Shown here one piece after another: positions 25,521 through 64,000 of a DNA stretch of 64,000 nucleotides; the stretch's first letter is position 1; the number at the start of each line of letters is the position of its first letter. Made by a program: the position numbers and the translations under genes. The stretch spans positions 1-64,000 of IMG/VR virus record IMGVR_UViG_3300030060_002740. The stretch is one strand, 5' to 3'. Under the pieces are notes generated by a model. The model made no database searches, had not been told where the DNA came from, and worked only from the letters and a program-made list of their open reading frames with translations. Source of the stretch: a virus.

Positions 25521-25731
25521 TCTCATTCACCTTATTTTTTATTTTTATTAACGCTTTCAACAATGTGTCTAATTCACCCATGTTGATTCTAATACCCTTT
25601 TTGGTGGGCTTACCATCACTATACCATCTAACATCTACAACTTCTGTCTTCCAGTAATTACCTTTTTTAATCTGTAATTCAGTTGTAGCGTTTCTTGGTA
25701 TTCTTGCTATTGTTTCAAATTTATCACTCAT
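25507..25731 (-). CDS. PC4-like single-strand-binding transcription coactivator
   Basis: 74 residues. TTELQIKKGNYWKTE, VVDVRWYSDGKPTKKGIRI and LDTLLKALIKIK match the PC4/YdbC fold (beta sheet, VDIR.y...g...PTKKGI, then helix). PC4 proteins bind melted DNA as dimers and assist archaeal/eukaryotic transcription or replication. It overlaps ligase and the next zinc protein, and a viral TFB is encoded in the same operon, so a role in promoter opening is plausible. Confidence 0.7.
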   Translation of the reverse strand: MSDKFETIARIPRNATTELQIKKGNYWKTEVVDVRWYSDGKPTKKGIRINMGELDTLLKALIKIKNKVNENESD

Positions 25732-43820: not shown

Positions 43821-43847
43821 TTTTTATTCTGGTTATAGGTGAAAAAG

Positions 43848-44429
43848 ATGGAAAAAATTTTTGCTAGTCCCGAAAAAATTCCAGCCCATTTTTTGAAAAA
43901 AGACGGGGTAGAATCTTTTGACCTATGGTTTGATACACTTCACAAGGACTTTCAGATGGCTAAGACCGAAGGTGGTGTTGATGATGCTATTGATGAGTTA
44001 GAGGAAGTAGTGGAAGAGTTCGACTTGACCGAGAATGAATGGGCTTCGGTTGATGATGCGTCTGATTACCTCTTTGAGCATAAGTACAAAGATAAGATGA
44101 AGAAGAGTTGGGCCGATATCATAAAAGCCACTATGAAAGCACCCCGTATTCCAAGAAAGAAAGGACAGAAAAGAAACTCAAAGGAGCATTCTGATTTGTA
44201 TACAGATGAAAACCCAAAAGGAACTATTCATGGTTTGGGATTCAAGGATGAGGAGAAGTCTAGGAAGTCTGTTTCTAAGATAAAGAACAGTAACAGAAGT
44301 CATGCACATAAAACACAAGCCGCAATAGCAATGGAGCAAAGAGCAAGGGAAATGGGTAAGACCAAAGAAGCAGCGATATACAGGAAGTTCATAGAACAGC
44401 AGAAAAAGAAAACCGAGGCTAGAAAATGA
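43848..44429 (+). CDS. small basic virion-type protein with TDENPKGT motif
   Basis: 193 residues from ATG 43848 (AGGTG upstream; a GTG at 43839 is less likely). An acidic helical half, KKSWADIIKATMKAP (copy of the shared Trp motif) in the middle, then SDLYTDENPKGTIHGLGF and SHAHKTQAAIAMEQRAREMGK. The TDENPKGT...SHAHKTQAAIAMEQRA part recurs in small basic proteins of marine phages and giant viruses. Function unknown; probably a virion or DNA-condensing protein. Confidence 0.6.
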   Translation: MEKIFASPEKIPAHFLKKDGVESFDLWFDTLHKDFQMAKTEGGVDDAIDELEEVVEEFDLTENEWASVDDASDYLFEHKYKDKMKKSWADIIKATMKAPRIPRKKGQKRNSKEHSDLYTDENPKGTIHGLGFKDEEKSRKSVSKIKNSNRSHAHKTQAAIAMEQRAREMGKTKEAAIYRKFIEQQKKKTEARK

Positions 44430-44701
44430 AACAGTGGTTGATTAGAAAGTTGATTGCCTTAATGGGTAACACCTATGTTTGGTTGGACAAGAAGTTAGTT
44501 CATCCTGATGGGCCAGTTCTAGGTTTGGAGATTGATGATGACTTTGCTAAGATGAGCAGATATGAGTTATGTTGTCACATTGAGGATAAGTTCGGATTAG
44601 AGAGAGATTCTTTTTGGAAGTTGGAATCTACACAGAAGATAAGGTTCTGTTCTCAAACTGCAAGGAACATACTTACGCCAAAAAAGAGGAAGAAGAAATG
44701 A
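44426..44701 (+). CDS. unknown basic protein
   Basis: 91 residues. Begins MKQWLIRKLIALMG, a Trp-containing amphipathic start, and ends in a Lys/Arg run (LTPKKRKKK). Two Cys (LCCHI) in the middle. ATGA overlaps on both sides. Possibly a virion DNA-binding protein. Confidence 0.5.
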   Translation: MKQWLIRKLIALMGNTYVWLDKKLVHPDGPVLGLEIDDDFAKMSRYELCCHIEDKFGLERDSFWKLESTQKIRFCSQTARNILTPKKRKKK

Positions 44702-44955
44702 GTAACTTAAGCAAGTTTGATAGTCTTCATCATAGTGCGACTATGCAGGGTTCACTAAGCACCGATGATGATTCTTGGTTTAACATACTAAGAATGGGAG
44801 GGGCGGTAACGTCAACCTCAAGTGGTACATCGGCATTATTCAACAATAAAACGGGAGGGGGAAAAAGACGTGGTAAAAAGAAAAAGAGTCTCAAAAGACA
44901 AAGGTATCAAGACGAAACTACCAGACGGGACAGACGCTACAATCAACGTAAGTAA
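44698..44955 (+). CDS. unknown basic protein with SWFNILR motif
   Basis: 85 residues from ATG 44698. DDDSWFNILRMGG is an internal copy of the shared Trp motif. C-terminal half is highly basic (GGGKRRGKKKKSLKRQRY). Its 3' end overlaps the next gene by 86 bases in another frame. Confidence 0.5.
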   Translation: MSNLSKFDSLHHSATMQGSLSTDDDSWFNILRMGGAVTSTSSGTSALFNNKTGGGKRRGKKKKSLKRQRYQDETTRRDRRYNQRK

Positions 44956-45982
44956 AAGGTCTTTTGGACAGAATTTCCAAGAGTGGGAAAGAAAAGCCGG
45001 AGGACTTTCAGGTGATTCAATTGGGATGATTAGTCCTGAAGCCAGTAACATGACTTTACTCGATGTAGTGAAAGAACAAGGAGTAATTGGAAGAATCAAG
45101 GGAAAGAAGGGAAGTAAGATAAAGGGCAAAGGTGGAGTTGCTATCTTCAAGGCGTTGAAAACTATCTTCAATAAACCTGATATGTCCAAAGGACAGTTAC
45201 CTGCCTTGAAAGCATTGGATACACTAATGAATGCGATTGAGGGAAGTTCTGCTGACCCTCGTAATATTGTATTCTCTAATCCGGTGGATTGGTCAGAAGA
45301 CACTGGAAGAGTCTTGGATACTGAACCTGTTTATGGACATTATAGAACTGATGAGTATGAAACTGTTAGAGATTTGAAAGACGAGGATGTTCCCGCAGTT
45401 TCATCAGAATGGTATAATGATTCCAAGAATGCTGCCACACCACCATTTTGGCAAGCACTTTATGGTAAGGGAACTAATGCTCCTTTCAATTCTCCAAGCC
45501 TACATATGATAATTAAACAGGCTATCAAAGATATTGGGGATGCCCCAATAATTATCAACAAGGACAACCCTGTTCCCATCGAGGGTAAGAAGGCTGCAAC
45601 TACTGCCCTCACAATTTCTGTATTGAGAGGCATAGTGGAAACAGAGTTGAATAATGGAAAAGAGGGTAAGTCATTTCCTGATAGTAAAGTTAGAAGATTG
45701 ATTATGGGGCAACCGTTTGATATTAGAACGGAAAAGGAATCCGAAGCAGTCAAGTCCCTCAAGAAACTGAACATTCCAAATGACATCGAGGAGTGTTGGT
45801 TCAAGTTATCAAGAAGACAAGTTAAGTTGATGGCTTTTGAACTTGCTAAGAGAAAAGGCGTGAAGATGCACTTCAGACAAGCAAGTGGAGATATTGCAAG
45901 AAGCCCATTGGTCTTCGGAGAAAGACCTGACCCTGATACTGAGAAGAAATCTCTTGATTGGAAAGGGATGTTAGCGAGGTGA
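44870..45982 (+). CDS. unknown virion-block protein, 370 residues
   Basis: Starts with GTG 44870 after GGGAGGGGG. Basic N terminus (VVKRKRVSKDKG), a glycine/lysine stretch (GRIKGKKGSKIKGKGGVAIF), an alpha/beta centre and a C-terminal helix ending KKSLDWKGMLAR, a copy of the shared Trp motif at the extreme C terminus. No family; probably part of the capsid interior or scaffold. Confidence 0.55.
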   Translation: MVKRKRVSKDKGIKTKLPDGTDATINVSKRSFGQNFQEWERKAGGLSGDSIGMISPEASNMTLLDVVKEQGVIGRIKGKKGSKIKGKGGVAIFKALKTIFNKPDMSKGQLPALKALDTLMNAIEGSSADPRNIVFSNPVDWSEDTGRVLDTEPVYGHYRTDEYETVRDLKDEDVPAVSSEWYNDSKNAATPPFWQALYGKGTNAPFNSPSLHMIIKQAIKDIGDAPIIINKDNPVPIEGKKAATTALTISVLRGIVETELNNGKEGKSFPDSKVRRLIMGQPFDIRTEKESEAVKSLKKLNIPNDIEECWFKLSRRQVKLMAFELAKRKGVKMHFRQASGDIARSPLVFGERPDPDTEKKSLDWKGMLAR

Positions 45983-45988
45983 TTAGTG

Positions 45989-46072
45989 TTGAAGTGTTGT
46001 AAAATAATAGGTTCATTTGATAATTGGTCTAATACAATGTGTCCTTATTGTGGGAATTACATAGAGAGGTGA
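45989..46072 (+). CDS. 27-residue zinc mini-protein, TTG start
   Basis: TTG 45989 has GGTGAT 5 bases upstream. KCCKIIGSFDNWSNTMCPYCGNY: two Cys pairs in 27 residues, a minimal zinc knuckle. It fills a gap between larger genes. Confidence 0.45.
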   Translation: MKCCKIIGSFDNWSNTMCPYCGNYIER

Positions 46073-46076
46073 GAGT

Positions 46077-46187
46077 TTGTTTTGGGGAGTCTGTTGTTTT
46101 TGTTTAGCAGTAACTCCCTTTGAGTCATCAACTTCTTCCGGTGATTTTTGTGTTACATGTGGAACATACGAGGGGGCGTTATTTTGA
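46077..46187 (+). CDS. 36-residue zinc mini-protein, TTG start
   Basis: TTG 46077, with GAGAGGTGAG upstream. VCCFCLAVTPFESS and DFCVTCGTYEG give two CxxC knuckles. Its stop overlaps the TTG start of the next gene. Confidence 0.45.
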   Translation: MFWGVCCFCLAVTPFESSTSSGDFCVTCGTYEGALF

Positions 46188-46843
46188 CTGTAACAAGAAA
46201 AAGATGTCGTCTTTGTATGCACGAAGACAGGGAAATCTTTGAGAGAGATTTGGAGAGTATGCACCTTCACCCTGATGACTTGGACAGTAGGATGAACTGG
46301 CCTAGTGGGACATCTGCCAAACATCAGAGAAATCACATGGGAGGTTATGCTGATGCCTCTAACCCCAAGTGTGCATTGTGTGTTTATGAGAATCGTTCAG
46401 AAATTGAACAGGAATTGTATTCGGGAGATATGACTCCTGAACTTGCCGCCAAGATAGTGGGTTGTTCAAAGGAGCAAGTTGTTAGACACATCAAGAAACA
46501 TACACAACCATTGGTGCAAAAAGCAGCAGCACAAATATTGGCGACAAAGGAAGTCAATGAGATTGATACCCTAAGTGGTAACATCACTAACCTTGAGAGA
46601 AAGTTGGAAGCCTTGTTTGAGATAGAAGACTTAGACCACAAATCAATTGATTCACTGACAAAGTTAGCGAAGGAAGTAAGAGAGTCGCTAAAGTATCTAA
46701 TGGAGTTCAAGGGTAAACTCGTTCACAGAAGACAAGACACAATCATTGTTCATCAAATGCAGATTATCAAAGAAGTGTTAGCACAAAACCATCCCGAAGT
46801 TTGGTTGGATGTCAGAAAACAAATGGAGGATAAGTTACAATGA
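46184..46843 (+). CDS. zinc/HTH protein, possible terminase small subunit
   Basis: 219 residues from TTG 46184 (TTGA overlap). Two related modules: CRLCMHEDREIFERDLESM...HQRNHMG and CALCVYENRSEIEQELYSG...VVRHIKKH. Each is CxxC, a helix-turn-helix-like stretch, then H...H. This layout is seen in phage small terminase-like DNA-binding proteins. A coiled part and PEVWLDVRKQMEDKLQ (Trp-motif variant) end the protein. Terminase large is 5 kb downstream in the same operon, so small terminase is a reasonable guess. Confidence 0.5.
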   Translation: MTVTRKRCRLCMHEDREIFERDLESMHLHPDDLDSRMNWPSGTSAKHQRNHMGGYADASNPKCALCVYENRSEIEQELYSGDMTPELAAKIVGCSKEQVVRHIKKHTQPLVQKAAAQILATKEVNEIDTLSGNITNLERKLEALFEIEDLDHKSIDSLTKLAKEVRESLKYLMEFKGKLVHRRQDTIIVHQMQIIKEVLAQNHPEVWLDVRKQMEDKLQ

Positions 46844-48639
46844 GTTGGTCAAGGGTTCTGAAGAGAAAGACTCTACGGGATAAGGTAGTTCAAGCATCCA
46901 AGGATGGTAACTTCGATGAACTTCTTCAGAACCATAAACCCGCACAATTGCGTAGAGCAGTAAACGAATTATTAGACATTGATATGCCACAAGAGAGGTT
47001 TCAGCCTTTGTTGGATAAACTTGGAACTGCTAAGAGGGTTGATGGTAAAAGAAACCCTGAATATGAAGACCCTAATACTAAGGAAATAGAAATGTATGAA
47101 TCCTTCATGAAAGGTAATCACGAAGAATTACTTACATTCCTAACAGAAGGAGGAAGAAGCACAGTAACAAATAGAATTTCACGCTTGATGAAATGGAACT
47201 CTGAGAACGGAGATGCACTTCTGAAATACGTCAAGGATAAACCCGAACTCTATGGCTACATCACTAAGGACATAACACTCACACTACCCAATAACTTTGA
47301 TAGGGATATTTTGGATGATTACCAATTTGTAATGGAGAGAGGTATCAAAGTAACTTTACCTGAGTTCCTAACAATAGAACAAGGAAAGGCACTTGCAGGT
47401 GGTCAGCCATCACAACCAATTGAGAGAACTGCTTTTGCTAGAATCTTCAAAGCCCCTGAATACAAGGATAAGATTGTAGCAACTTCTGTCAAATTAGAGG
47501 AAAGCACAATTGATGGTGGATTTGCAGCAGATTATCTGAACATGGTTGTAACAAATCTACGTGGTAATACAAGAGAACCATTCATGCCTACATTCTCAGT
47601 ATCAGAAGCCCCTTCTTCGGGACAAATTAGAGAAGCACAAAAGTTGTTCTTCGGTGCTAAGACTGGTGGAGGCACAAGTAGGATGTATCCCGCAATGGAG
47701 TATATTCTAAGAAATGAGAAGTTGGACTTGGATGTTGGTTTTGTTAGAACTCAAACTAAGGAAACACTACAAGAAGTGGAGTTGGCTAATAAGTTCCAAA
47801 GGGCAGAGATAGATGATGAGGAATTGAATAAGTTATACAATAAGTTTGTAAAAACCAAGACTGATGAGGATGGTAATGTAACAAGCGTTACAGGTTATGC
47901 TAACTTCAAACGAGCAGTTGTTGATGCAGGGCTTGAAGACAGGTATAACAAGTTCTTGAAAGAAACCCAAGTCAGACGCTATACTCTACCTGTTGAAGTT
48001 AGAGATGCTTTAGTTGCTATGATTGACAATGAAGCAGATGATAAACAAGTTAAATTGGTAAAGGCCAAATTAGGGCATCTATTCTCAAAGGTTGGTTTCA
48101 AGCGTTCAGTCAGAGAGATGCGTAAGAAGAAGGTAAACTACGGCGACCCTGATAAGATAAAAGAGGCTCTACTTTCTATGGAAGAAAAAGCAGAGGGAAC
48201 TGTTTCTATAACAGACAAACTATTCCTTGAGAGAGTTAACTTCCTATTCGATGATGTAGACCAAGACCCATTGGGTAATTTCCTTTCGGGAATGGATAGT
48301 GGTGGTAAGTTTAGATTAAGGGATATGCAACTTTCTTCTAAGCAGGTTCTACAATTTTCAGATTTATTGGTTATGGTTCTACAATTATCGAGAAAGATGT
48401 TGAGGGATTCTAAGTTGCAAATGTCCTTGAAGAGATTACTTAGAGAAACAGATGCTAAGAAAAAGAAAGAAACGGAAGACGAGTTTAAGACAAAACTATC
48501 AGAATCATATTCTAAAATACATAAAGGTGTATTAGACGCAATAAGAAGAAAGATGGTGCAAGTGATGGAAGAACCATTGCTACACAATAAATCAGGAGCG
48601 ATTCAACCATACGATTGGATTAACGAGAACAGGAGTTGA
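46840..48639 (+). CDS. large unknown virion-block protein (MSWSRVLK start)
   Basis: 599 residues. N terminus MSWSRVLKRKTLRDKV carries the shared Trp motif. The rest is charged and mainly helical, with no enzyme motif recognised. ATGA overlap with the previous gene. Size, charge and position upstream of terminase/portal suggest an internal virion or scaffold-like protein. Confidence 0.6.
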   Translation: MSWSRVLKRKTLRDKVVQASKDGNFDELLQNHKPAQLRRAVNELLDIDMPQERFQPLLDKLGTAKRVDGKRNPEYEDPNTKEIEMYESFMKGNHEELLTFLTEGGRSTVTNRISRLMKWNSENGDALLKYVKDKPELYGYITKDITLTLPNNFDRDILDDYQFVMERGIKVTLPEFLTIEQGKALAGGQPSQPIERTAFARIFKAPEYKDKIVATSVKLEESTIDGGFAADYLNMVVTNLRGNTREPFMPTFSVSEAPSSGQIREAQKLFFGAKTGGGTSRMYPAMEYILRNEKLDLDVGFVRTQTKETLQEVELANKFQRAEIDDEELNKLYNKFVKTKTDEDGNVTSVTGYANFKRAVVDAGLEDRYNKFLKETQVRRYTLPVEVRDALVAMIDNEADDKQVKLVKAKLGHLFSKVGFKRSVREMRKKKVNYGDPDKIKEALLSMEEKAEGTVSITDKLFLERVNFLFDDVDQDPLGNFLSGMDSGGKFRLRDMQLSSKQVLQFSDLLVMVLQLSRKMLRDSKLQMSLKRLLRETDAKKKKETEDEFKTKLSESYSKIHKGVLDAIRRKMVQVMEEPLLHNKSGAIQPYDWINENRS

Positions 48640-48643
48640 GCAA

Positions 48644-51430: not shown

Positions 51431-51434
51431 TAAG

Positions 51435-51935
51435 ATGTTAGAGTTTCAAGAGATGTCTGAGGATGATGCCGTTAGAGTATTCTTAGATGATGGGTATTAT
51501 GAATACCAAAAAAGAAGAGAGCGTTACCAAAAAATATCTCCTAATTCATCTTGGGCTACTGCACCCGCAAGAATGTTTGTTGGTTTTTTAGAAGATAAAC
51601 CAGTAGGAGTTATTGGTTTTTCTAAATACAAAGGAGTTTTGTTAGGAGCAGGTATTCACGTTAGAAGAGGATTTAGAGGTAGAGGACTATCACAATTATT
51701 AGTTCAAAAACTCATAGAGGAAAAAGGAGGTCAAACTCTTTTTGTTAATATCGGCAACCCAAGAATTGCTAACACATATAGAAGATACGGATTCAAAGAT
51801 ATGAATGAAGAAGAGTTACCCGATGAATCAAGAAATGCTATTCAAGGATTAGAATTTGCCGACCAAGTTCAGAAGTGGGTTTGGGGAGTTCATCGAGATG
51901 TTTGGTTTGATGTGGTGAAAAATGGAATTAGATGA
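51435..51935 (+). CDS. GNAT N-acetyltransferase with C-terminal Trp motif
   Basis: 166 residues. AGIHVRRGFRGRGLSQLLVQKLI is motif A of GNAT (R/QxxGxG/A acetyl-CoA loop) and NPRIANTYRRYGFKDM is motif B. A possible substrate is a protein N terminus or Lys, unknown. The C terminus RDVWFDVVKNGIR is a copy of the shared Trp motif, here at the end instead of the start. Overlaps terminase by 14 bases. A GNAT in a packaging operon is unusual. Confidence 0.75.
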   Translation: MLEFQEMSEDDAVRVFLDDGYYEYQKRRERYQKISPNSSWATAPARMFVGFLEDKPVGVIGFSKYKGVLLGAGIHVRRGFRGRGLSQLLVQKLIEEKGGQTLFVNIGNPRIANTYRRYGFKDMNEEELPDESRNAIQGLEFADQVQKWVWGVHRDVWFDVVKNGIR

Positions 51936-53355
51936 TTTAGATTTTGTTTCAGCAATGGATATGGAACTATCTAAAACTTCATTTCCATACTTTTTTCAGA
52001 ATGTTCTTGGAATGATGTTTCCCCCATACATGCAAGAATGGCTAGAGACAATGGAAAAAACAGATAGAACTGTTATTGTTTGTAGTCGTGACCACGGAAA
52101 ATCTGTTTTTATGCACAGTTGGGTAGTATGGAATCTTGTCTTTCAAGAACCACCATATCAAATGCTTTACATTTCCTCTAACCAAAAGCAGACTCTTGTT
52201 CACATGAGAGAGATTGACAGATACTTCAATCACCCTGCTCTTAAGAAATACAAACCCAGTAGAGGTTGGGCTATTGGAAATATACAATTAACAAACGGTA
52301 ACGCTATCTTGGAGCGTTCCGTTGGTTCTCAAATCAGAGGACTTCACCCACAGGAGATTATCATTGACGACCCTTTGAAGGAGTTCAGTCTTGCAGGTAT
52401 TCAACGAGTTACTGATTGGTTCTTCGGAGATATGATACCAACACTTCATCATACATCTAAGTTGAGGATGATTGGAACTCCATTTACCTATACAGATATC
52501 TTTGCTCAGTTAGAGGAAAATGAAGCATATTCTGTTCAGAAGTATCCATGTCTAAACTCTTTGAATGAACCACTATGGCCTGAGCGTTGGGACTATGACG
52601 CACTAATGAAGAGAAAAGCAGAAATAGGCTCTCTCAAGTTTACAAGAGAATATCTTTGTGTTCCTATATCTACGGGAACTGCTCTATTCAATCCTGAGTT
52701 TATCGAGAAGTGCAAGAACAAGGACTATGTTTTGAAACTTGGACATCGTAAGGAGAAGGGATACAAGTATTATGTGGGCGTTGACCCTGCCATCTCAACA
52801 GATGGAGACTACAATGTAATCACGGTTTTGGAAGTTGATGATGAGAAAAATAAAACCATAGTCCATGTAGATAGGGCCAAGAATGTAGAGTTCAGAGAGA
52901 ACATAGAGAAGATTAGATTAATTGGTAAAATCTTTGAACCAGAAGAAATACTCTATGAAACCAACACGTTTGCAAAAGCATTCACACAGGAACTAAGAAA
53001 CATATCCGATTTGAATGTTAGAGATTTTACCACTACAAGAAAAAAGAAGCAAGAGATAATTCTGAGTCTTCAAATGAACATAGAAAATGGAAAAATAAAC
53101 TTTCCATATGGCGATAATGCAAGCAGAAGATTGACGAATGCTTTGATAGAGGAACTGTCTATGTTCTCTATTACCACTGCCGGAAAGTTTGAGGGTGTAG
53201 GAGCGCATGACGACTTAGTTATGAGTTTAGCATTGGCAGTGGCTTGTGCTACAAAGACATCAGATGTGTTCCTGTTGTTAGATGATATGGGAATATTTGA
53301 TGAGCCTAAACCAATGAACAGGTCTTTAGGCGGAATGATGGGGCTGAACTTCTAG
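51922..53355 (+). CDS. terL: terminase large subunit
   Basis: 477 residues. ATPase: Walker A CSRDHGKS (54-61), Walker B EIIIDD (145-150), coupling motif near GTPFTY (185-190). Nuclease: GVDPA (286-290, first Asp), YETNTFAKA and AHDDLVMSLALA (last Asp pair). Packages DNA into the procapsid. GTPFTYTD and nuclease spacing are typical of the phage/herpes type. It is the best marker of a tailed virus in this window. Confidence 0.95.
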   Translation: MELDDLDFVSAMDMELSKTSFPYFFQNVLGMMFPPYMQEWLETMEKTDRTVIVCSRDHGKSVFMHSWVVWNLVFQEPPYQMLYISSNQKQTLVHMREIDRYFNHPALKKYKPSRGWAIGNIQLTNGNAILERSVGSQIRGLHPQEIIIDDPLKEFSLAGIQRVTDWFFGDMIPTLHHTSKLRMIGTPFTYTDIFAQLEENEAYSVQKYPCLNSLNEPLWPERWDYDALMKRKAEIGSLKFTREYLCVPISTGTALFNPEFIEKCKNKDYVLKLGHRKEKGYKYYVGVDPAISTDGDYNVITVLEVDDEKNKTIVHVDRAKNVEFRENIEKIRLIGKIFEPEEILYETNTFAKAFTQELRNISDLNVRDFTTTRKKKQEIILSLQMNIENGKINFPYGDNASRRLTNALIEELSMFSITTAGKFEGVGAHDDLVMSLALAVACATKTSDVFLLLDDMGIFDEPKPMNRSLGGMMGLNF

Positions 53356-53366
53356 GGGGGTAGTGC

Positions 53367-54695
53367 GTGACGGAGGAAGATAGCGAAATCTTGGAAGATA
53401 TTCTTGAGCGAACAAAGCGAAGAGAGACTTTAGACCAAGAAATCGAAGAACGCACTAAGGATTTGAAACGCGCTTGGCTATCCAGTGTTCCAATAGAAGA
53501 CCACAGTATTTTGGAAAAGAAATACGCAGAAGATTTCAGAATGAGCCTATCTGATGCAAGAAAGGAATTGAAGTATACTCTGACTAAGTATGAGATTGAG
53601 GGTTCTGATATTCCAAAGACAATAAAGGAATTGAAAAAATACCGAAGGACTCTCAAAGGAGAGGACAAGGTGAAGATTACCAATTCGATTGAGAATTTAA
53701 TCAAGGCATATTCTGACCACTTGGATAAGAGTATGGATGACATTTACTGGATTAGTAAGTATAAACCAGTTCTCAAAGACATGACTTGCTCGGAAGATAA
53801 TCTAATCAAACTATCATATGTTGATGATGCAAGTACAAGGCGAGAACTAGTTGATACTCTCTGTAAATATTGGGAAGCAAAAATAGAGAAGGAGGGTATG
53901 CCCTTCAATTCTGACTACTCAAGATTAACAAAGGAAATGACTAACACAAAAAGACAATTCAAAAGATTGCTGAAGAAGCATATGAAAACCACTTCTCCAA
54001 AGGATAAAATCAAACATCACATTCTAAAATCAATATGTGAAGAACCCGGAATATCAGCAAGGCAGATACATGAGAGACTACCGAAGAGTCTCTTTACTAG
54101 AACAACACCAAACGTTATTGCTAAAATGGCTAAACAGGAAAACATCACCACTGTTAATGGTGCTTTCTACAAGTTTAGTGATGAGATAAAGAAAGACATC
54201 TATGCCTATACTGCTGCGTTTATTGATTCTGATGGCTACATTACAATGGATAAGAATTACAATCCAAGAGTCGGTTTGGTTGCAACAGGAGAAAGAGGCA
54301 AGGCTTTCATGATGGAGATGCACAAGTCATTGGGATGTGGCAGATTGCATCTTGACCAAAAATCTCCACAGGACACAAGACCAGTAAACAGGTTGAACTT
54401 TTATTCGGGTGCTGATGTTACAGAACTACTCACAAAATGTAGGCCACATTTCAGAATGAAAGGTAAGAATGCTGACATTCTATTAGAGTTAATCAGAATG
54501 AAGAAATCGCATAAGAAGGCTGATTGGTACAAAGAAAGAAGGGAAGAACTATTCAAGTTGATGAAATATGAGAATCATAAAGACCACGTAGGTTATGATT
54601 TCACACGATATGATATTGATATTGATAGTGTTGCCAAGTTACATGATAATTGTAAGATGGGTGCAATGGATGTTATTGAGGGGGTGATTGCATGA
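53367..54695 (+). CDS. winged-helix plus LAGLIDADG-like protein
   Basis: 442 residues from GTG 53367 (GGGGGGT upstream). A coiled-coil/charged first half, a winged-helix-like segment (KHHILKSICEEPGISARQIHERLP), then YTAAFIDSDGYITMD, the LAGLIDADG endonuclease motif with its acidic residue, and a following GRLHL...NFYSG core. It could be a homing endonuclease fused to a DNA-binding region, or a domesticated form used in packaging, as it sits directly after terminase. No intron or intein is visible there. Confidence 0.55.
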   Translation: MTEEDSEILEDILERTKRRETLDQEIEERTKDLKRAWLSSVPIEDHSILEKKYAEDFRMSLSDARKELKYTLTKYEIEGSDIPKTIKELKKYRRTLKGEDKVKITNSIENLIKAYSDHLDKSMDDIYWISKYKPVLKDMTCSEDNLIKLSYVDDASTRRELVDTLCKYWEAKIEKEGMPFNSDYSRLTKEMTNTKRQFKRLLKKHMKTTSPKDKIKHHILKSICEEPGISARQIHERLPKSLFTRTTPNVIAKMAKQENITTVNGAFYKFSDEIKKDIYAYTAAFIDSDGYITMDKNYNPRVGLVATGERGKAFMMEMHKSLGCGRLHLDQKSPQDTRPVNRLNFYSGADVTELLTKCRPHFRMKGKNADILLELIRMKKSHKKADWYKERREELFKLMKYENHKDHVGYDFTRYDIDIDSVAKLHDNCKMGAMDVIEGVIA

Positions 54696-54937
54696 CTTGG
54701 TTTGACGTTCTAAAAAGAAAGTCTGGTAGGCGAGGAAAAAAGGCTCGCAAGAAGAGAAAGAAAGGTAAGTCAAAGGTGAATCAGGCTGGTAATTACACAA
54801 AGCCCACTATGAGGAAGAAACAGTTTGCAAGAATCAAAGCAGGTAGCAAAGGTGGCCCTGCGGGTAAGTGGTCAGCGAGAAAGGCACAGTTGCTTGCTCG
54901 GAGATACGAGAAAGCAGGTGGTGGCTATCGTGACTGA
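54692..54937 (+). CDS. basic protein with MTWFDVLK start, NYTKPTMRK family
   Basis: 81 residues. N-terminal MTWFDVLKRKSGRRG carries the Trp motif, then a Lys/Arg stretch, then NYTKPTMRKKQF, KAGSKGGPAGKWSARKAQ and KAGGGYRD, a sequence recognisable from small basic proteins of many marine phages and some giant viruses (DUF, function unknown). Probably binds DNA. First of three consecutive small basic genes. Confidence 0.65.
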   Translation: MTWFDVLKRKSGRRGKKARKKRKKGKSKVNQAGNYTKPTMRKKQFARIKAGSKGGPAGKWSARKAQLLARRYEKAGGGYRD

Positions 54938-55277
54938 TTGGTTTGATATCATTAGGAAAAAAAGTAAACCCCGAAGAAGAAAGGGTGCTAAGTCTAGTAA
55001 GAAAAAACTTAGGCGTAGAAAACAAAAGAAAAATCTGAAGCAGGGTCAACAGGCTCTTGTAGAATGGACTGATGAAGAGTGGGGAAGTGCAGAACAACAC
55101 AGTGCCAAAGAAAAAGGAAAAAAAGCACCCTCCAAGACAAAGGGCAGATATATGCCAAAGGCTACTTACAAAAGAACTCCTAAATCTAGGTTGAAGTATC
55201 AAGATAAAAAGAAAAAAGAGGGACGTAAGAAAGGAAAGCAAAACGTCCCAACAGGAAAGAAATTCTCTCAGAAGTGA
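54930..55277 (+). CDS. basic protein with TDWFDIIRKK start
   Basis: 115 residues from GTG 54930 (AGGTGG upstream, 8-base overlap with the gene before). TDWFDIIRKKSKPRR is the Trp motif; then a Lys/Arg-rich region, DEEWGSAEQHSAKEKG and GRYMPKATYKRTPKSR, YQDKKKKEGRKKG, VPTGKKF. The EEW...RYxPK...K...G pattern occurs in the same class of small phage basic proteins. Likely nucleic-acid binding inside the capsid. Confidence 0.6.
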   Translation: MTDWFDIIRKKSKPRRRKGAKSSKKKLRRRKQKKNLKQGQQALVEWTDEEWGSAEQHSAKEKGKKAPSKTKGRYMPKATYKRTPKSRLKYQDKKKKEGRKKGKQNVPTGKKFSQK

Positions 55278-55281
55278 TATT

Positions 55282-55587
55282 ATGGATTGGTTTGAAGTTC
55301 TAAAGAAAAAGGGCAAGCACCCTGCTTTGAAGAGAGCGGGTGTTAGTGGTTTCAGTAAACCAAAAAGAACTCCTAAGCATCCTAAGAAATCTCATGTGGT
55401 TGTCGTCAAAGATGGCAAAAAGGTAAAGACTATTCGCTTTGGGCAACAAGGTGCTGATACAGTAACCGAGAAAGACCCAAAGGGAAAAAGAAAAAAGAAA
55501 CAAGCATCATTCAAGGCTCGCCATGCTAAGAATATTAAGCGGGGGAAAATGTCTGCGGCGTATTGGGCTAACAAGGTAAAGTGGTAA
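55282..55587 (+). CDS. basic protein with MDWFEVLK start
   Basis: 101 residues. MDWFEVLKKKGKHPALKRAG, then KRTPKHPKKSHVVVVKDGKK, TIRFGQQGADT and KARHAKNIKRGKMSAAYWANK. The SHVVVVKDGKKVKTIRFGQ...KARHAKNI...AAYW pattern is recognisable from small basic proteins in other marine viruses (function unknown). Third member of a basic trio, upstream of the portal. Confidence 0.6.
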   Translation: MDWFEVLKKKGKHPALKRAGVSGFSKPKRTPKHPKKSHVVVVKDGKKVKTIRFGQQGADTVTEKDPKGKRKKKQASFKARHAKNIKRGKMSAAYWANKVKW

Positions 55588-55589
55588 GT

Positions 55590-57248
55590 ATGGTAGAAGA
55601 AAGAAGAAGATTTAGTTTAACAAATTTGTTTAGGCAAACTACGCCTAAGCCCGCAGATAGAACAGTATACAATCCGGGTATACAAGAGAGAGATAATTCA
55701 TATCTTTTGACTAGTCCAATCATCTATCACATAGTATCTCAATCAACTATTGTTAGAACCTGTATCACTCAGTTGAAACAGGAGATATTCAGAAGAGGAT
55801 ATCATTGGGATTCTAAGTTTGCTCTAAAATGTAGAAATTGTGGTAAGGAACACGAAAACACAGTAAAGCAATGTGTTGAATGTGAAAGCACTGATTTGGC
55901 AAAGCCTAATGTTGAACAACTAAAATATGCTAAAGAGTTCTTAGATGGGTATGTGAATTGCTCAGAGCAGATGTTTATTGATGTCCTAAAGGAACTTGAA
56001 GATGACTTGAATATAATGGATGACGCATACTTGGTAATGGTAAAGGAATACTATGCCGATAACAACTCCAAGGTCAGGATGCACAGAATAAAGGAAGTAT
56101 ACAGAGGCGACCCAGTTACTATGCACATCTATTCAAACGATTTGGGAGAAAGAGGCAAAGCCGGATATACTTGTTTAAGACATAGAGATAGAGTATATTC
56201 AAGTCCAACTGAACTTTGCGAAACTTGTAATTCAGAACTCTATCCTATTCATTATGTTAACAGGGTAAATGGTGAAGAACAGTATTTCGTAAAGGGAGAA
56301 GTTCTACACTTCAGCAAATACTCTCCAAGTAGATTATATGGACTTTCACCTATAATCACTCTATGGAATAATGTTACAACATTGATTGCTATGGAGAATT
56401 ATGTTAACTCATCATATACCAAAGCAAGAATGCCGAAGGGACTTCTTGCTGTTCAAACAAGAAACATGGATTCGATGAAGTCATTTTGGCGTGGTGTCAA
56501 AGAAAAGATGGAGCAAGACCCACACTTCATACCTGTAATGGGAATAGAGGGAGAAGGCGGTAAGGGTTCTGTTGAATGGGTCAAGTTCATGGACAGTCTA
56601 AAAGAAATGGATTACATACAAGTTAAGGATGATTTGAGAGATAGGATTTCAGCATTCTATGGTGTGAGTAAAATCTTCATGGCAGATAACTCTGCAAGTG
56701 GTGGATTGAACAATGAGGGTATGCAAGTATTAGTTACTAATAGAGCAGTTGAAATGGCTCAAACAATTTGGAATAACTATGTGTTCCCATTTATGACGGA
56801 AGAATTTGGTATAACTGATTGGCGTTTGAAACTACCACCATCCGAAGAAGAGGATGAAATTGCAGTTCTACGTAAAAGAGAGATAGAAGTGAATGTCGCT
56901 GCTGCAATTAAAAACTTAGGATTTGAAGTAGACATGGATGATGAAGGTGGATTCATTTACACAAAACCTGAACCTAAAGAACCAACAGAAGGAGAAGGTG
57001 AAGAAGGTAGCGAAGAAGTTGAATTAGACCCATACGCCGGAACTGATATTGATGCCTCTCAACTAGGACAATTACAAGAACAAATGATGGGTGGTGGAAA
57101 TAAGTCTGAGAGCAAACCTCAAGAGAACCCCCCCGCTACGAGAAACAAACCATCTATGGCAACTGGGCCGGATAAAAGATTTACAGGATTACCAAGAGAA
57201 GCCGGAAATGAAAATGTTGACGAAAGAACAGAGAGGAGAGTAGGATGA
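55590..57248 (+). CDS. portal protein with zinc-binding insertions
   Basis: 552 residues from ATG 55590. The pattern around ISAFYGVSKIFMADNSASGG and a portal-type core (SPSRLYGLSPIITLWNNV) fits phage portals. Two clusters, C81/C84/C95/C98 and C195/H198/C210/C213, look like zinc ribbons inserted in the wing region. C terminus acidic (EGEGEEGSEEVELDPYAG) and Gln-rich. It forms the connector for DNA entry and is adjacent to terminase as usual. Confidence 0.75.
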   Translation: MVEERRRFSLTNLFRQTTPKPADRTVYNPGIQERDNSYLLTSPIIYHIVSQSTIVRTCITQLKQEIFRRGYHWDSKFALKCRNCGKEHENTVKQCVECESTDLAKPNVEQLKYAKEFLDGYVNCSEQMFIDVLKELEDDLNIMDDAYLVMVKEYYADNNSKVRMHRIKEVYRGDPVTMHIYSNDLGERGKAGYTCLRHRDRVYSSPTELCETCNSELYPIHYVNRVNGEEQYFVKGEVLHFSKYSPSRLYGLSPIITLWNNVTTLIAMENYVNSSYTKARMPKGLLAVQTRNMDSMKSFWRGVKEKMEQDPHFIPVMGIEGEGGKGSVEWVKFMDSLKEMDYIQVKDDLRDRISAFYGVSKIFMADNSASGGLNNEGMQVLVTNRAVEMAQTIWNNYVFPFMTEEFGITDWRLKLPPSEEEDEIAVLRKREIEVNVAAAIKNLGFEVDMDDEGGFIYTKPEPKEPTEGEGEEGSEEVELDPYAGTDIDASQLGQLQEQMMGGGNKSESKPQENPPATRNKPSMATGPDKRFTGLPREAGNENVDERTERRVG

Positions 57249-57574
57249 GTTGGGAAGATACGATAAGAAAGAATGTGTTTGATAAAAACCCTAATGATAT
57301 GACTGACTTTATGAATGTCAGTCCTAGAATGGAAAGGGAAGCAGAAAAGAGAACACAGGGGGAAAATAGATACAAGATAGAGAGAATGTTACTGGATGCT
57401 TCTGTTGCTTTAGGTAATGCAGAAAAGTTGTTAACTGAGTTAAATAGAGAACATAAAGATGAATTAAACTCTACTGAATATATGAAAGGAGATAGATTAA
57501 AGAATAGTATGTCTAAACTCATAAGAAGAAGTGTAAAGAACATCTCAGTTGTTGAAAAAGAATTGTTTAGGTGA
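57245..57574 (+). CDS. unknown helical protein (MSWEDTIRK start)
   Basis: 109 residues; Trp motif MSWEDTIRKNVFD at the start; otherwise helical (LLDASVALGNAEKLLTELNRE) and basic at the end. Overlaps portal stop (ATGA). Likely virion component by context. Confidence 0.55.
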   Translation: MSWEDTIRKNVFDKNPNDMTDFMNVSPRMEREAEKRTQGENRYKIERMLLDASVALGNAEKLLTELNREHKDELNSTEYMKGDRLKNSMSKLIRRSVKNISVVEKELFR

Positions 57575-57580
57575 TTTAGA

Positions 57581-57982
57581 ATGAGTTGGCGGGTTATTCT
57601 GAAAGAGGTTTCTTGTCCTTTAGCCACTCAAGATTTAATGTTGAATACAAAAAATAGAGATGCTTCAGTAAAAAATCCTAACATCAGATATGGCCCACTT
57701 AATCTTGAAGATGAAGATTATTGGGTAGAATATGGAAAGAGATGGAATACTACTGCTGATGTAGCAAAAGAATCTAATTGTAGCAATTGTGTTGCTTTTG
57801 ATATATCACCGAGAATGGATGACTGTATGCCGTTGACTACTGATGAAGATGGATATTTAGGTTACTGTTGGATGCACCATTTCAAATGTCATTCAGCAAG
57901 AACATGTTATACTTGGGCTAAAGGTGGCCCAATAGATGATGATGCAACATCAAAAGAAAATCAAATGAGGGGTAAACAATGA
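57581..57982 (+). CDS. Cys-rich protein (MSWRVILK start)
   Basis: 133 residues. Starts MSWRVILKEVSCPL. Then TADVAKESNCSNCVAFD, RMDDCM, YCWMHHFKCHSARTCYTW: seven or eight Cys and His residues in a pattern I recognise from an uncharacterised phage Cys-rich family (…CxxCxxFD…GYCxMHxFKCHSARTC…). Metal or Fe-S binding likely. Virion location suggested by motif and operon. Confidence 0.6.
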   Translation: MSWRVILKEVSCPLATQDLMLNTKNRDASVKNPNIRYGPLNLEDEDYWVEYGKRWNTTADVAKESNCSNCVAFDISPRMDDCMPLTTDEDGYLGYCWMHHFKCHSARTCYTWAKGGPIDDDATSKENQMRGKQ

Positions 57983-58095
57983 ATTGGTTCGATGTATTAA
58001 AGAAATTAAAAGGTAAACAAAAACTACTTGACAAAGATGATGATGGAGATATTGATGAAGAAGACTTCAAAGCACTAAGGGAGGAGAAGGAATGA
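57979..58095 (+). CDS. 38-residue EF-hand mini-protein with Trp motif
   Basis: MNWFDVLKKLKGKQKLL then DKDDDGDIDEED, a complete EF-hand loop (D1, D3, D5, G6, I8, D12), then a short helix. It combines a Trp tag with one calcium loop and little else. Overlaps both neighbours (ATGA). Confidence 0.6.
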   Translation: MNWFDVLKKLKGKQKLLDKDDDGDIDEEDFKALREEKE

Positions 58096-58346
58096 GTTGG
58101 CAAGATATACTAAAAAACGAGATGGACATAAAGACATTAGAAGAAATAGCAGGTGAATTGGAGAAAGCAGTTGAAGCACATGGTTCTCAAGCAAAGAGAA
58201 TCAGAGAGATAATTTCTCAATACAAGAAAGAACCACCCACAAAAATGCCCTCACCACAATACATAACCAATAGGCCAAAAACCGCAGGGCAACAGTCTAT
58301 GATAGATAGAGCAACTAGGAACTTGAGAGAACAAGAGAGAAGGTGA
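58092..58346 (+). CDS. unknown helical protein (MSWQDILK start)
   Basis: 84 residues. MSWQDILKNEMDIK, a helix (LEEIAGELEKAVEAHGSQAK), Pro-rich middle, basic tail (ATRNLREQERR). No family; virion context. Confidence 0.55.
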   Translation: MSWQDILKNEMDIKTLEEIAGELEKAVEAHGSQAKRIREIISQYKKEPPTKMPSPQYITNRPKTAGQQSMIDRATRNLREQERR

Positions 58347-58350
58347 TTAC

Positions 58351-58578
58351 ATGAGTGAAGAAAAAACAGTAAGAGAGTTAGAAAGAGAATTGAAGGCAGC
58401 AAGGGTTAGAGAAAGAAAGGAACACACCGATAAGGTGACTGTTAGTAGAGACTATTCTATTGGTGGTATTGATAGAGATACCACAGTAGAAAAGAAAAGT
58501 CCTGATTCTGCTGATATACCTGATGCTATTCTGCTACCTAAGAGTAAGAGAAACCGAAGAGAGAACATACCTTTCTGA
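58351..58578 (+). CDS. unknown small basic protein
   Basis: 75 residues. Charged coiled N terminus (VRELERELKAARVRERKEH), polar middle, basic end (PKSKRNRRENIPF). Does not carry the Trp motif at the start. GGTGATTAC upstream of ATG. Confidence 0.5.
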   Translation: MSEEKTVRELERELKAARVRERKEHTDKVTVSRDYSIGGIDRDTTVEKKSPDSADIPDAILLPKSKRNRRENIPF

Positions 58579-58587
58579 GTTGGTTAC

Positions 58588-60417
58588 ATGACATGGACTA
58601 GTATTCTCAAGAGAAGCGAAATCCATGCTGATGTTATGTGGGCTTACAATCAAGCCCAACAACAAGAATCAACCAAGTTTCCTATTGCAGATTTGCGTGA
58701 GGCGCATCGTGCATTAGACGATGCAGCCGAAAAAGACGCAGAAGAAAGAGATGAATCGGAGGCTAAGGTTACAAATATTTTGAGTAGAGGTTTTTTCTCT
58801 AACTCAAGGGATAGGTTAACTCCTGTTGAGTTTGAGAAGGATAAAAGAAAGTTCGTCAACAGAATAAATAATTTAGAAAGATTACTAAACAAAAGAAGTA
58901 CAGAATCTATGAAACTTCCCGAAGGACAGACATTGAACATAAGAGATTTAGATGCTATAAGAGAAGAAAACTCTTTGCTAGAATTATTGTTTGAGGGAGA
59001 GAAAAAAGTTCTCGTTAAACTAAGAGAAGGATTAGGAGAAAGAAAAGATGCTGCCATTGACTTTGCAGAAAAACTTACTGATGCAATGGAATCATGGGAT
59101 AGGTACGGAGATAATACCCGTAGTAGAAATCTTGCTGATAACCTAAGACCACGACTATCATCAGGAGCAAAGAACCTACAAGCATATTTGTTAGAGGGAA
59201 AGGGTCGAATTAGAACTGAGGTTTCTTCTGTATTTCACGAAAAGAATGCAGAGTTCGATGATGAAAGTAAAACTTGGAGTCCTCTTAAGGTATATCCAAA
59301 GGGAAACACTTCCTTGGAATTACTTGAGCAAATATACTCTTATCTTAGAATACCAATAAAAATATCAGGAGAAGATGAAGCCGGAGAGAAGGCAATACGA
59401 AGTTATTTCTCATTGGATGTGGATGGTTTTGTAGAAGAGATTCATGATATGATAGGCAGTGATGACCCAAAGATTCACGCTAAATTATTCTTTAACAAGG
59501 ATGATGTTTTGAGAAAGATATACAGAATAGTTCCTGAAATCATACAGATTGCAGAGGAAAAGATGGATGAGAAGGAAAAGAGGGATTTGCTTACTAAGCA
59601 TTTTGACGTGTTGGAGTATCTGATTAGGATTAATTCTTTGACTGGTGATTATAGTAGACTCAAAGAAAGCAGGTTGGACAAGGTGAAAAGATTTGCTCAT
59701 ATGCGAAAGGGAAAAAGAAATCTCAGTATGAATAGAAACTTCCCGATGTTAGAAGATGCGTATGAGGAGTATGAGGCAAACCCAAGTGAATATCATGAAA
59801 GTGGTAGAAAACAAAGAAGGGCAGGGAAAGACGCTTCTTCTCTACAAACCCTTGGATTGAAACCAATACCTGACGGAGCAGTTAGGGGAACTTACCCTAA
59901 GAAAAAGAAGGTAGAAGACTTACAAAGAGAAATTGTTTCTTTCGGGGAAAAAGCAAGGGAAGCAATCAAAGAAGAACAAAAGAAACTTGCTGTTAACAAG
60001 CCTAAGACAGAAAAAGAAAAAATTCAAGCAGAGAGAACTTTCTTACTTCCTCTCAAGAGGCAGATAGAGAGATACACGAAAGAAGTAGAAGAACTAGGGT
60101 TACTGTTTGAGGATACTCCTGAGTCTGCTGCCGAGTTCCATGACTATGGAGATTTAAGTTCTGATAACTTAGATGAAAAAATAGAAGAAGCAAAGGAGCA
60201 ATTGAAACTCGCAGAGGAGGCAAAATTGGAAGAAGAGGAATTAGAAACATACAAGGATTATGTTGTTACTCTGCAAACTATCAAGAAACTCCCCCAAATT
60301 AGAGAAACAGTTGGTAGGATTCAAAGCATAATAGATTCTGCTAAATATCCTATAATGTCTGAGCAACAATCATTAGATGAACCCTCATCTGAAGATGCAA
60401 AGGAGGAGTCTGCATGA
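58588..60417 (+). CDS. large unknown virion-block protein (MTWTSILK start)
   Basis: 609 residues. MTWTSILKRSEIHADVM at the start, then mainly charged helices (REEKxK-type coiled regions: LQREIVSFGEKAREAIKEEQ, EEAKEQLKLAEEAKLEEEE). No enzyme motif. Similar in size and charge to the 46840 product, and the two may be related structural/scaffold proteins. Confidence 0.6.
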   Translation: MTWTSILKRSEIHADVMWAYNQAQQQESTKFPIADLREAHRALDDAAEKDAEERDESEAKVTNILSRGFFSNSRDRLTPVEFEKDKRKFVNRINNLERLLNKRSTESMKLPEGQTLNIRDLDAIREENSLLELLFEGEKKVLVKLREGLGERKDAAIDFAEKLTDAMESWDRYGDNTRSRNLADNLRPRLSSGAKNLQAYLLEGKGRIRTEVSSVFHEKNAEFDDESKTWSPLKVYPKGNTSLELLEQIYSYLRIPIKISGEDEAGEKAIRSYFSLDVDGFVEEIHDMIGSDDPKIHAKLFFNKDDVLRKIYRIVPEIIQIAEEKMDEKEKRDLLTKHFDVLEYLIRINSLTGDYSRLKESRLDKVKRFAHMRKGKRNLSMNRNFPMLEDAYEEYEANPSEYHESGRKQRRAGKDASSLQTLGLKPIPDGAVRGTYPKKKKVEDLQREIVSFGEKAREAIKEEQKKLAVNKPKTEKEKIQAERTFLLPLKRQIERYTKEVEELGLLFEDTPESAAEFHDYGDLSSDNLDEKIEEAKEQLKLAEEAKLEEEELETYKDYVVTLQTIKKLPQIRETVGRIQSIIDSAKYPIMSEQQSLDEPSSEDAKEESA

Positions 60418-60758
60418 GTTGGCAAGATGTTCTAAAGGAAGAGGGATTCTACTTCGCTCCTGTTTTCATTGAGAAACTCGACGGTAAGCAGAAAAAGAAG
60501 TTGAAGAAACTCATACAGAAGGCCCAACCAACAAACATGATGGGTCAAGACATGACTCAACTCTCAGATATAATCGAAGAACTGAAAGATATGGATTTAG
60601 TAAAATCCGACAAGAAACTAAGTAAAACCGTAGAAGGGTTTGATGAGAAGAACTTGGATATCCTCGCTTCTGCCTCTGAGTTGAGGAAAGACTACGAAAC
60701 ATTATTCACACAACTAAGGAAAATGGTTTATCCACCATCAAAGAAAGGTAAGCAGTGA
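60414..60758 (+). CDS. unknown helical protein (MSWQDVLK start)
   Basis: 114 residues. MSWQDVLKEEGFYFAPVFIE, then helices (KLKKLIQKAQPTNMM; LSDIIEELKDMDLVK). ATGA overlap with the previous gene. No family. Confidence 0.55.
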   Translation: MSWQDVLKEEGFYFAPVFIEKLDGKQKKKLKKLIQKAQPTNMMGQDMTQLSDIIEELKDMDLVKSDKKLSKTVEGFDEKNLDILASASELRKDYETLFTQLRKMVYPPSKKGKQ

Positions 60759-60762
60759 TACA

Positions 60763-60843
60763 ATGAATTGGAAAGAAGAACTAAGAATACGGATTAAAGA
60801 AAGTTTATCTAAAATGTATGAGGAGGAAGCATACAATGAGTGA
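60763..60843 (+). CDS. 26-residue mini-protein (MNWKEELR start)
   Basis: MNWKEELRIRIKESLSKMYE...: nothing but a Trp-motif-like start and a helix. Its stop overlaps the next start. If translated, it is close to a free copy of the tag. Confidence 0.45.
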   Translation: MNWKEELRIRIKESLSKMYEEEAYNE

Positions 60844-61057
60844 CGAGATGTTGATGCTGATGAAAGAATTGGTAGACAAAGTGAAAGCCTTAGAGCAAGC
60901 AGTTTACCACAAAGACAACCTATTGATGAAATCAGGATTTGTTGTTTACGATTCACCTACACCCACAATGAATAGTAAAGATGTTGTAGGTAGTAGTACG
61001 ATAAAAAAGAGTATGGATTGGGAAGACATACATGAATTAGTAAAACAGATGGAGTGA
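60836..61057 (+). CDS. unknown protein with C-terminal SMDWEDIHELVK
   Basis: 73 residues from ATG 60836. Helical first half (LMKELVDKVKALEQAVY), polar middle, and the Trp motif variant SMDWEDIHELVKQME at the C terminus. Virion context. Confidence 0.5.
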   Translation: MSDEMLMLMKELVDKVKALEQAVYHKDNLLMKSGFVVYDSPTPTMNSKDVVGSSTIKKSMDWEDIHELVKQME

Positions 61058-61281: not shown

Positions 61282-61308
61282 ATCCCTACGAAAGACTTGA
61301 GGGGTCAG

Positions 61309-63945: not shown

Positions 63946-64000
63946 ATGCTGATGATGGGTACTCCTTTACTAAAGGCTGAGAGTAACCATGAGTTTAGTA
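63946..64000 (+). CDS. start of the next gene, truncated by the window (possibly capsid)
   Basis: An open frame begins ATG 63946 (alternatives 63952, 63955): MLMMGTPLLKAESNHEFS. A TATA-like CATATAG lies about 27 bases upstream, the right distance for a leaderless, strongly expressed gene. An alternative ATG at 63989 in another frame has no support. Major capsid or protease is a guess from genome position only. Confidence 0.35.
   Translation, partial: MLMMGTPLLKAESNHEFS

Follow-up and report, generated by a model that had tools for sequence, protein, structure and literature searches.

Why should a series of viral proteins that are otherwise unrelated carry the same short tryptophan peptide at their ends? 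The question is raised by IMG/VR virus record IMGVR_UViG_3300030060_002740 (92,413 bases), whose bases 1–64000 form the window analyzed here. A first-pass annotation of the window had described eleven proteins starting with M-x-W-x-x-[VITE]-[LI]-[KR], and had suggested that the peptide is a transferable tag, perhaps for docking or cargo loading. Three points need to be addressed: (i) is the peptide more frequent than expected by chance, and in which genes; (ii) does it move independently of the proteins that carry it and (iii) what might it bind. Taken together, the answers make it probable that the tag is a capsid-targeting (prohead-loading) signal for internal, and perhaps injected, proteins.

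Ten of the eleven starts, all on the plus strand, match the described pattern exactly. MSWSRVLK (46840–46863) opens a 599-residue protein (46840–48639), MTWFDVLK (54692–54715) a very basic protein of 81 residues, and MDWFEVLK (55282–55305) a basic protein of 101 residues whose body is phrog_7595. MSWEDTIR (57245–57268) begins the gene directly 3′ of the portal gene and is followed by MSWRVILK (57581–57604) on a Cys-containing protein of 133 residues, MNWFDVLK (57979–58002) on an open reading frame of 38 codons, MSWQDILK (58092–58115) on an 84-residue protein and MTWTSILK (58588–58611) on one of 609 residues. MSWQDVLK (60414–60437) starts a 114-residue protein, and the weakest member, MNWKEELR (60763–60786), a 26-codon frame. 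The eleventh start departs from the pattern: MTDWFDIIR (54930–54956), the beginning of MTDWFDIIRKK in a basic protein of 115 residues, has a GTG start codon and Trp at position 4. Conservation differs between families, with 26 of 38 relatives of the 599-residue protein N-tagged, a relaxed tag in 75 of 85 relatives of the 114-residue protein and a tag in only 1 of 79 members of the 609-residue family. In the predicted model of the 599-residue protein, tag residues 1–9 have a predicted local distance difference test score (pLDDT) <50 and the body is otherwise folded; a fold search with this protein gave no PDB relative, only unnamed viral models.

The copies reported away from protein starts are also present when the sites are read, again on the plus strand. 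Two are internal: SWADIIK (44106–44126, within KSWADIIK), at the seam of a two-domain protein (43839–44429; alternative start 43848), and SWFNILR (44773–44793, within DSWFNILR), in the 85-residue protein at 44698. Three are C-terminal: VWFDVVK (51900–51920, within VWFDVVKNGIR), at the end of a GNAT-family protein (51435–51935) directly 5′ of the terminase gene; LDWKGMLAR (45953–45979), in the 44822 protein; and MDWEDIHELVKQME (61013–61054), in a 73-residue protein (60836–61057).

Chance does not account for these numbers. A model based on the amino-acid composition of the genome, computed over 110 genes, predicts 0.012 N-terminal matches in the whole genome, and the probability of at least nine is about 1e-23. 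The block from 39.9 to 66 kb contains 10 motif matches as against 1.0 in shuffles, whereas the replication block contains one, internal, as against 1.8 expected. Terminal tags are absent from all 47 replication-block genes of this genome, and its tail genes have no motif match in 11,032 residues. Two matches that lie inside folded domains, at residue 48 of the ligase and residue 410 of the capsid protein, look like chance.

The same restriction is evident in 80 related loci, gathered through their terminase, in which the consensus is M-[STND]-W-x-[DEN]-[IVT]-[LIV]-K. Gene calls in this set are mechanical and the loci share content and ancestry, so that the number of sequences does not equal the number of events. 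On the terminase strand there are 369 strict tags with an ATG start, on the opposite strand none, which bears out the earlier statement that the tag is confined to the plus strand. Called genes on the virion strand give 475 motif matches (36 in shuffled proteins), of which 322 are N-terminal and 243 have Trp exactly at position 3; on the opposite strand no match falls at any terminus. When the motif is relaxed, N-terminal tags are found in 497 of 1551 plus-strand genes (18 when shuffled) and in none of 155 minus-strand genes. The equal frequency in replication or random proteins that the annotation had set against its own proposal is not seen; in this virus and its relatives alike, matches are far above those in shuffled proteins and are enriched at termini.

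The boundary of the tagged region is sharp. Before the prohead protease 186 of 537 genes are tagged, and after the major capsid gene none of 725. The placement in a 'virion block' made earlier holds for the pre-capsid head genes and is otherwise too broad, because tail genes are never tagged. Landmark genes are untagged as well: portal (0/81), capsid protein (0/78) and a second ligase (0/70). Six apparent matches in the terminase, near residue 38, reflect an internal MQEWLETMEKTDRT segment in a conserved domain and are fortuitous.

The tag is a property of this virus group. All of 20 larger records have the pattern, nearly always on one strand and mostly in one region around the terminase, and 103 of 117 loci returned from a viral collection by the tag pattern alone have homologues of this virus, the rest being short pieces with several tags or chance matches. 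The HVTV-1 head genes examined, representing the Druskaviridae, carry no tag, and no prior description of it was found in the literature searched. Two further loci (L numbers denote related loci) deserve mention. In L172 a lone replication-block gene on the minus strand (2373–2690) begins with MGTMTWEDVLKDFEQ, with the tag in MGTMTWEDVLK; no other clearly tagged gene was seen outside a head block. L196, a contig of 184,733 bases, has at least seven tagged genes in succession; the tag may therefore be present in viruses of twice this genome size.

Whether the tag moves independently of its carriers can be judged from the bodies. Clustered with the tag removed, tagged proteins fall into 143 families, 76 of them singletons, numbers that are approximate since they depend on single linkage at one threshold; a locus often has 5–11 tagged genes, and the sets are lineage-specific. 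The annotation was correct in describing the remainder of these proteins as unrelated. They have a median length of 105 residues and are variable and mostly orphan: Pfam and PHROGs searches over 130 representatives gave weak scattered matches only, phrog_7595 excepted, and further scans likewise. The phrog_7595 body occurs without a tag in Roseobacter and cyanobacterial phages. It starts MVMAKKDPRLERAG in Roseobacter phage CRP-4 and MDWFEVLKKKGKHPALKRAG in the window virus, so that the 55282 protein is the same body with a tag added.

The converse, a tag retained or repositioned while its surroundings change, is equally well represented. In the 44822 family the tag (e.g. DWRTIMK, DWREIVK) is kept at the very end and the linker before it diverges beyond recognition. 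The slot before the terminase is occupied in some viruses by GNAT-like proteins with C-terminal tags (WFYIMRK, WKDILRR, WFAMLKR, WFDVVK) and in others by proteins with an N-terminal MNWFDLLK or MDWFEIVK, for which the GNAT assignment is weak (E 0.003–0.02). In the 43839 protein the tag joins an acidic domain to one resembling phrog_727, both of which are separate N-tagged proteins in relatives, and the module SWFNILRM.GAVTSTSSGTSALFNN of the 44698 protein starts some proteins and follows unrelated domains in others. Placement at N termini, C termini and domain seams, together with untagged bacteriophage homologues of the same body, strongly supports the description of the tag as transferable.

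Several of these modules are of interest in their own right. The acidic domain, VDDAIDDLEE..WSSVDDASDYLFEHK, occurs in three contexts (L026, L048, L080–L082, L087; L037, L041, L047 and others): on its own as a tagged protein, as the C-terminal part of the protein after the terminase, or fused as in the window. The 44698-type module with its basic tail, SWFNILRM.GAVTSTSSGTSALFNNKTGG (window 44698–44955; L012:489–1310), is reused behind differing N-terminal domains, one of which has an HEYLH segment suggestive of a metallopeptidase. L174 and L193 contain tandem arrays of tagged paralogues with a common second motif (e.g. MSWFDIIKEPLISIPK, MTWWSIIKNQIASTKGK).

Residue preferences within the tag suggest what it may look like. 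In 88% of distinct N-terminal tags the residue at position 2 is S/N/T/D, and in 87% that at position 5 is D/E/N/S/T; position 6 is mostly I/V/T, position 7 is L/I/V and position 8 is Lys in 96%. Only the first 8 residues are common to 325 distinct 16-mers. C-terminal copies have D/S/N before the Trp in 80%, a position left free in the regular expression used to find them, as compared with about 28% (S/T/D/N) before other Trp residues. The pattern is that expected of an N-capped amphipathic helix. At the DNA level, the Ser2 codon is AGT in 96% of N-terminal tags (54% of untagged Met-Ser genes), and 50% of tagged starts overlap the upstream stop as ATGA (18% of other genes), features that fit operon coupling and perhaps also the spread of start-site DNA by copying. 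Codon choice at positions 5–8 is about as varied as elsewhere in the genes, and Leu is encoded by all six of its codons. Internal and C-terminal copies use other Ser codons, and the C-terminal ones look independently evolved.

A clue to the binding partner comes from the S78 prohead protease-scaffold, whose gene (genome 63946–65187, in-window part 63946–64000, plus strand) ends just past the window with a further copy, MSWEDIHALTRGD. Each of the 79 protease-scaffolds with an intact end has, in roughly its 16 C-terminal residues, SW[GEDSAN][DE][ILV]H or something close to it, and each has W-x-[DE]-[ILV] there; one further protein, from L158, is cut by the contig end and was left out of the count. 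In condensed form the peptide reads SW[GED][DE][IL]H, and Trp397 is invariant amid a variable tail. The structural model is poor in the catalytic part, and therefore the C-terminal helices alone were used, with caution: a long helix (297–378), a linker and a separate helix (397–405) starting at the invariant Trp, predicted with modest confidence. This IH variant also closes the 73-residue protein at 60836 and the proteins related to it. In tailed viruses, binding to the shell falls to the scaffold; the cargo tags may therefore mimic its docking peptide.

What is directly observed is the tag, its confinement to head genes before the capsid gene, its modularity and the cognate peptide on the protease-scaffold; from these we infer a helix contact, a receptor, packaging and injection as follows. 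The tag, [S/T/D/N]-W-x-[D/E]-[I/V]-[L/I]-K, would form an N-capped amphipathic mini-helix with a Trp/Ile/Leu face that docks within the prohead; the likeliest site is on the capsid protein or a scaffold core built by the protease-scaffold fusion. The C-terminal helix of the scaffold, SW[GED][DE][IL]H, would occupy the same or an overlapping site. Closure of the shell would then enclose the tagged proteins, which would remain beside the packaged DNA as internal proteins; some of them would probably enter the host and act there early, in anti-defence or takeover. Cargo loading, as the annotation had proposed, is the best explanation because the protease-scaffold has a cognate peptide, tagged genes occur only before the capsid gene and the residue layout matches that of the T4 signal discussed below.

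Four observations weigh against this interpretation. The scaffold variant has His, not Leu/Ile, at +4, including that of the 73-residue protein, so that a receptor common to cargo tag and scaffold is not certain. Tagged bodies are slightly acidic at the median, unlike the basic internal proteins of T4. Almost no cargo functions are assignable. Finally, no cleavage site is apparent behind the tag: there are no conserved residues and no [LI]xE enrichment, and information falls to background after about position 10.

The alternative that fares best, though we consider it unlikely, is that the tag sorts proteins to a virus factory, a membrane or a host complex, or serves to recruit a single viral or host partner, with no role in packaging. 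Packaging is deduced here rather than seen, short helical motifs are common as sorting or docking signals, and small, fast-evolving genes mostly lacking an assigned function are as expected of host-interaction factors as of head cargo. Such a role does not readily explain the absence of terminal tags from the 47 replication-block genes and from the tail genes, or the cognate peptide on a protease-scaffold that in known phages is active inside the prohead. Less probable still is a role in assembly, with the tag making contacts in the packaging or neck apparatus (the portal, the terminase or a head-completion complex) and not serving as a general cargo signal. Tagged genes do cluster near the terminase and portal, but such complexes need few proteins, not 143 lineage-specific families, and genes after the capsid gene, where neck genes are usually located, are never tagged.

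We regard it as highly improbable that all tagged genes are diverged paralogues of one ancestor in which the start alone is still recognizable. Some adjacent tagged genes are recent tandem duplicates, as in L174 and L193, but the bodies range from GNAT-like proteins and phrog_7595, with its untagged phage homologues, to a 599-residue protein of unrecognized fold and small Lys/Arg-rich proteins, and one N-terminal ancestor cannot yield C-terminal copies. A translation-start or DNA-level signal (ATGAGTTGG) is the least credible explanation of all: the AGT bias at codon 2 is real and, with the ATGA overlap, favors it, but ATGA coupling partly explains a second codon starting with A, and the free codons 5–8 and the copies away from starts rule out a translation leader as the whole cause.

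Returning to capsid targeting, a wider proposal may be considered, toward which we lean slightly less than against: that the tag is a position-independent packaging code of a (probably archaeal) virus order, in which a relative of the scaffold docking peptide was copied or re-evolved on well over 100 families, roughly one in three genes upstream of the protease and capsid encodes a virion-internal, injected protein, and the layout equals that of the T4 signal. If this is true, the N-capped aromatic mini-helix would be a general, convergent route for loading HK97-fold heads, and tailed viruses far from T4 would share the same kind of address label. If the tag means head entry, a regular expression would separate virion-internal, probably injected, proteins from others; the families so identified, well over a hundred, would be candidates for anti-defence or takeover functions, and the peptide itself could be used to load foreign proteins into such capsids.

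The genome around the tagged genes has two opposed blocks. A minus-strand replication block (about 8–38 kb) encodes PolB, a clamp-loader-like AAA protein, an ATP-dependent ligase and a TFB-type zinc ribbon. On the plus strand, the order is terminase large subunit (51922–53355), portal protein (55581–57248), S78 prohead protease, SU10-type major capsid protein (SU10_MCP; genome 65190–66584, directly after the protease gene) and tail genes. The nearest named relatives of the capsid protein are those of the haloarchaeal Druskaviridae (HVTV-1/HCTV). The head block also has an ATP-dependent DNA ligase of 867 residues (PF01068; window 61297–63900) beside the protease, kept in about 70 related loci and untagged; the replicative ligase is separate (23970–25526).

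Magroviruses are uncultured and widespread, and their small head-block genes are almost all of unassigned function. The Magrovirales/Aoguangviridae have been described as viruses attributed to marine Poseidoniales archaea, with genomes of 90–100 kb, two opposed gene clusters, an archaeal-type replisome, an HK97-fold capsid protein and a relation to Druskaviridae (PMC10768690). The window virus agrees in size, opposed blocks, replisome and capsid-protein relation, and fits this description as a marine, magrovirus-like tailed virus; its host is probably archaeal. The sole relative in a genome collection, L293 (contig NZMJ01000101.1), lies in a Maricaulis metagenome bin and has an 80% identical terminase and several tagged genes, but the contig is probably mis-binned, and a host assignment based on the bin was rejected.

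Among known systems, the closest is provided by the internal proteins of phage T4, which are small, variable, basic and injected; one is an antirestriction protein, and T4 removes its signal. The T4 capsid-targeting sequence (CTS) begins IPII and IPIII as MKTYQEFIAE and IPI as MKTFKEF. Like the tag, it is a short peptide common to otherwise unrelated proteins, covers about 10 residues of small variable proteins, N-terminal in T4 and mostly so here, and has the layout Thr/Ser, aromatic, x, acidic (+2), hydrophobics (+3/+4), as in T-Y-Q-E-F-I and S-W-Q-D-I-L. In IPIII, residues 1–10 are enough for packaging, which depends mainly on residues 4 and 7 (PMC9026906). The spacing of these residues (Tyr; Phe/Ile-type) equals that of Trp3 and Ile6 here. 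The tag differs in having Trp and a Lys at +5, in sitting one residue nearer the Met and in occurring also at C termini and domain seams, on far more proteins; moreover, the S78 protease is of another family, no cleavage site is evident and packaging is deduced. The likeness is one of residue classes, with residues and register differing, and the tag does not belong to the sequence family of MKTYQEFIAE; no homology is claimed.

A second N-terminal precedent is P1 DarB, whose first 30 residues suffice to carry a reporter into the head; the P1 Dar proteins have no recognizable common N-terminal consensus (PMC9024508), whereas the consensus here is explicit. As with the factors proposed here, the P1 cargo is antirestriction. 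The comparison with encapsulation signals made in the first-pass annotation is less near than that with T4. Encapsulin cargo-loading peptides are short, C-terminal and found on unrelated cargo, and dock to the HK97-fold shell of a cellular compartment. The likeness lies in a short terminal peptide on unrelated proteins; the shell here is SU10_MCP, not an operon-encoded encapsulin, and the tags are mostly N-terminal. Finally, P22-type scaffolds bind coat protein via a C-terminal helix, comparable to the conserved short helix at the C terminus of the protease-scaffold. Cargo loading through the P22 helix is an engineered use, whereas in the viruses considered here many proteins naturally bear a related peptide.

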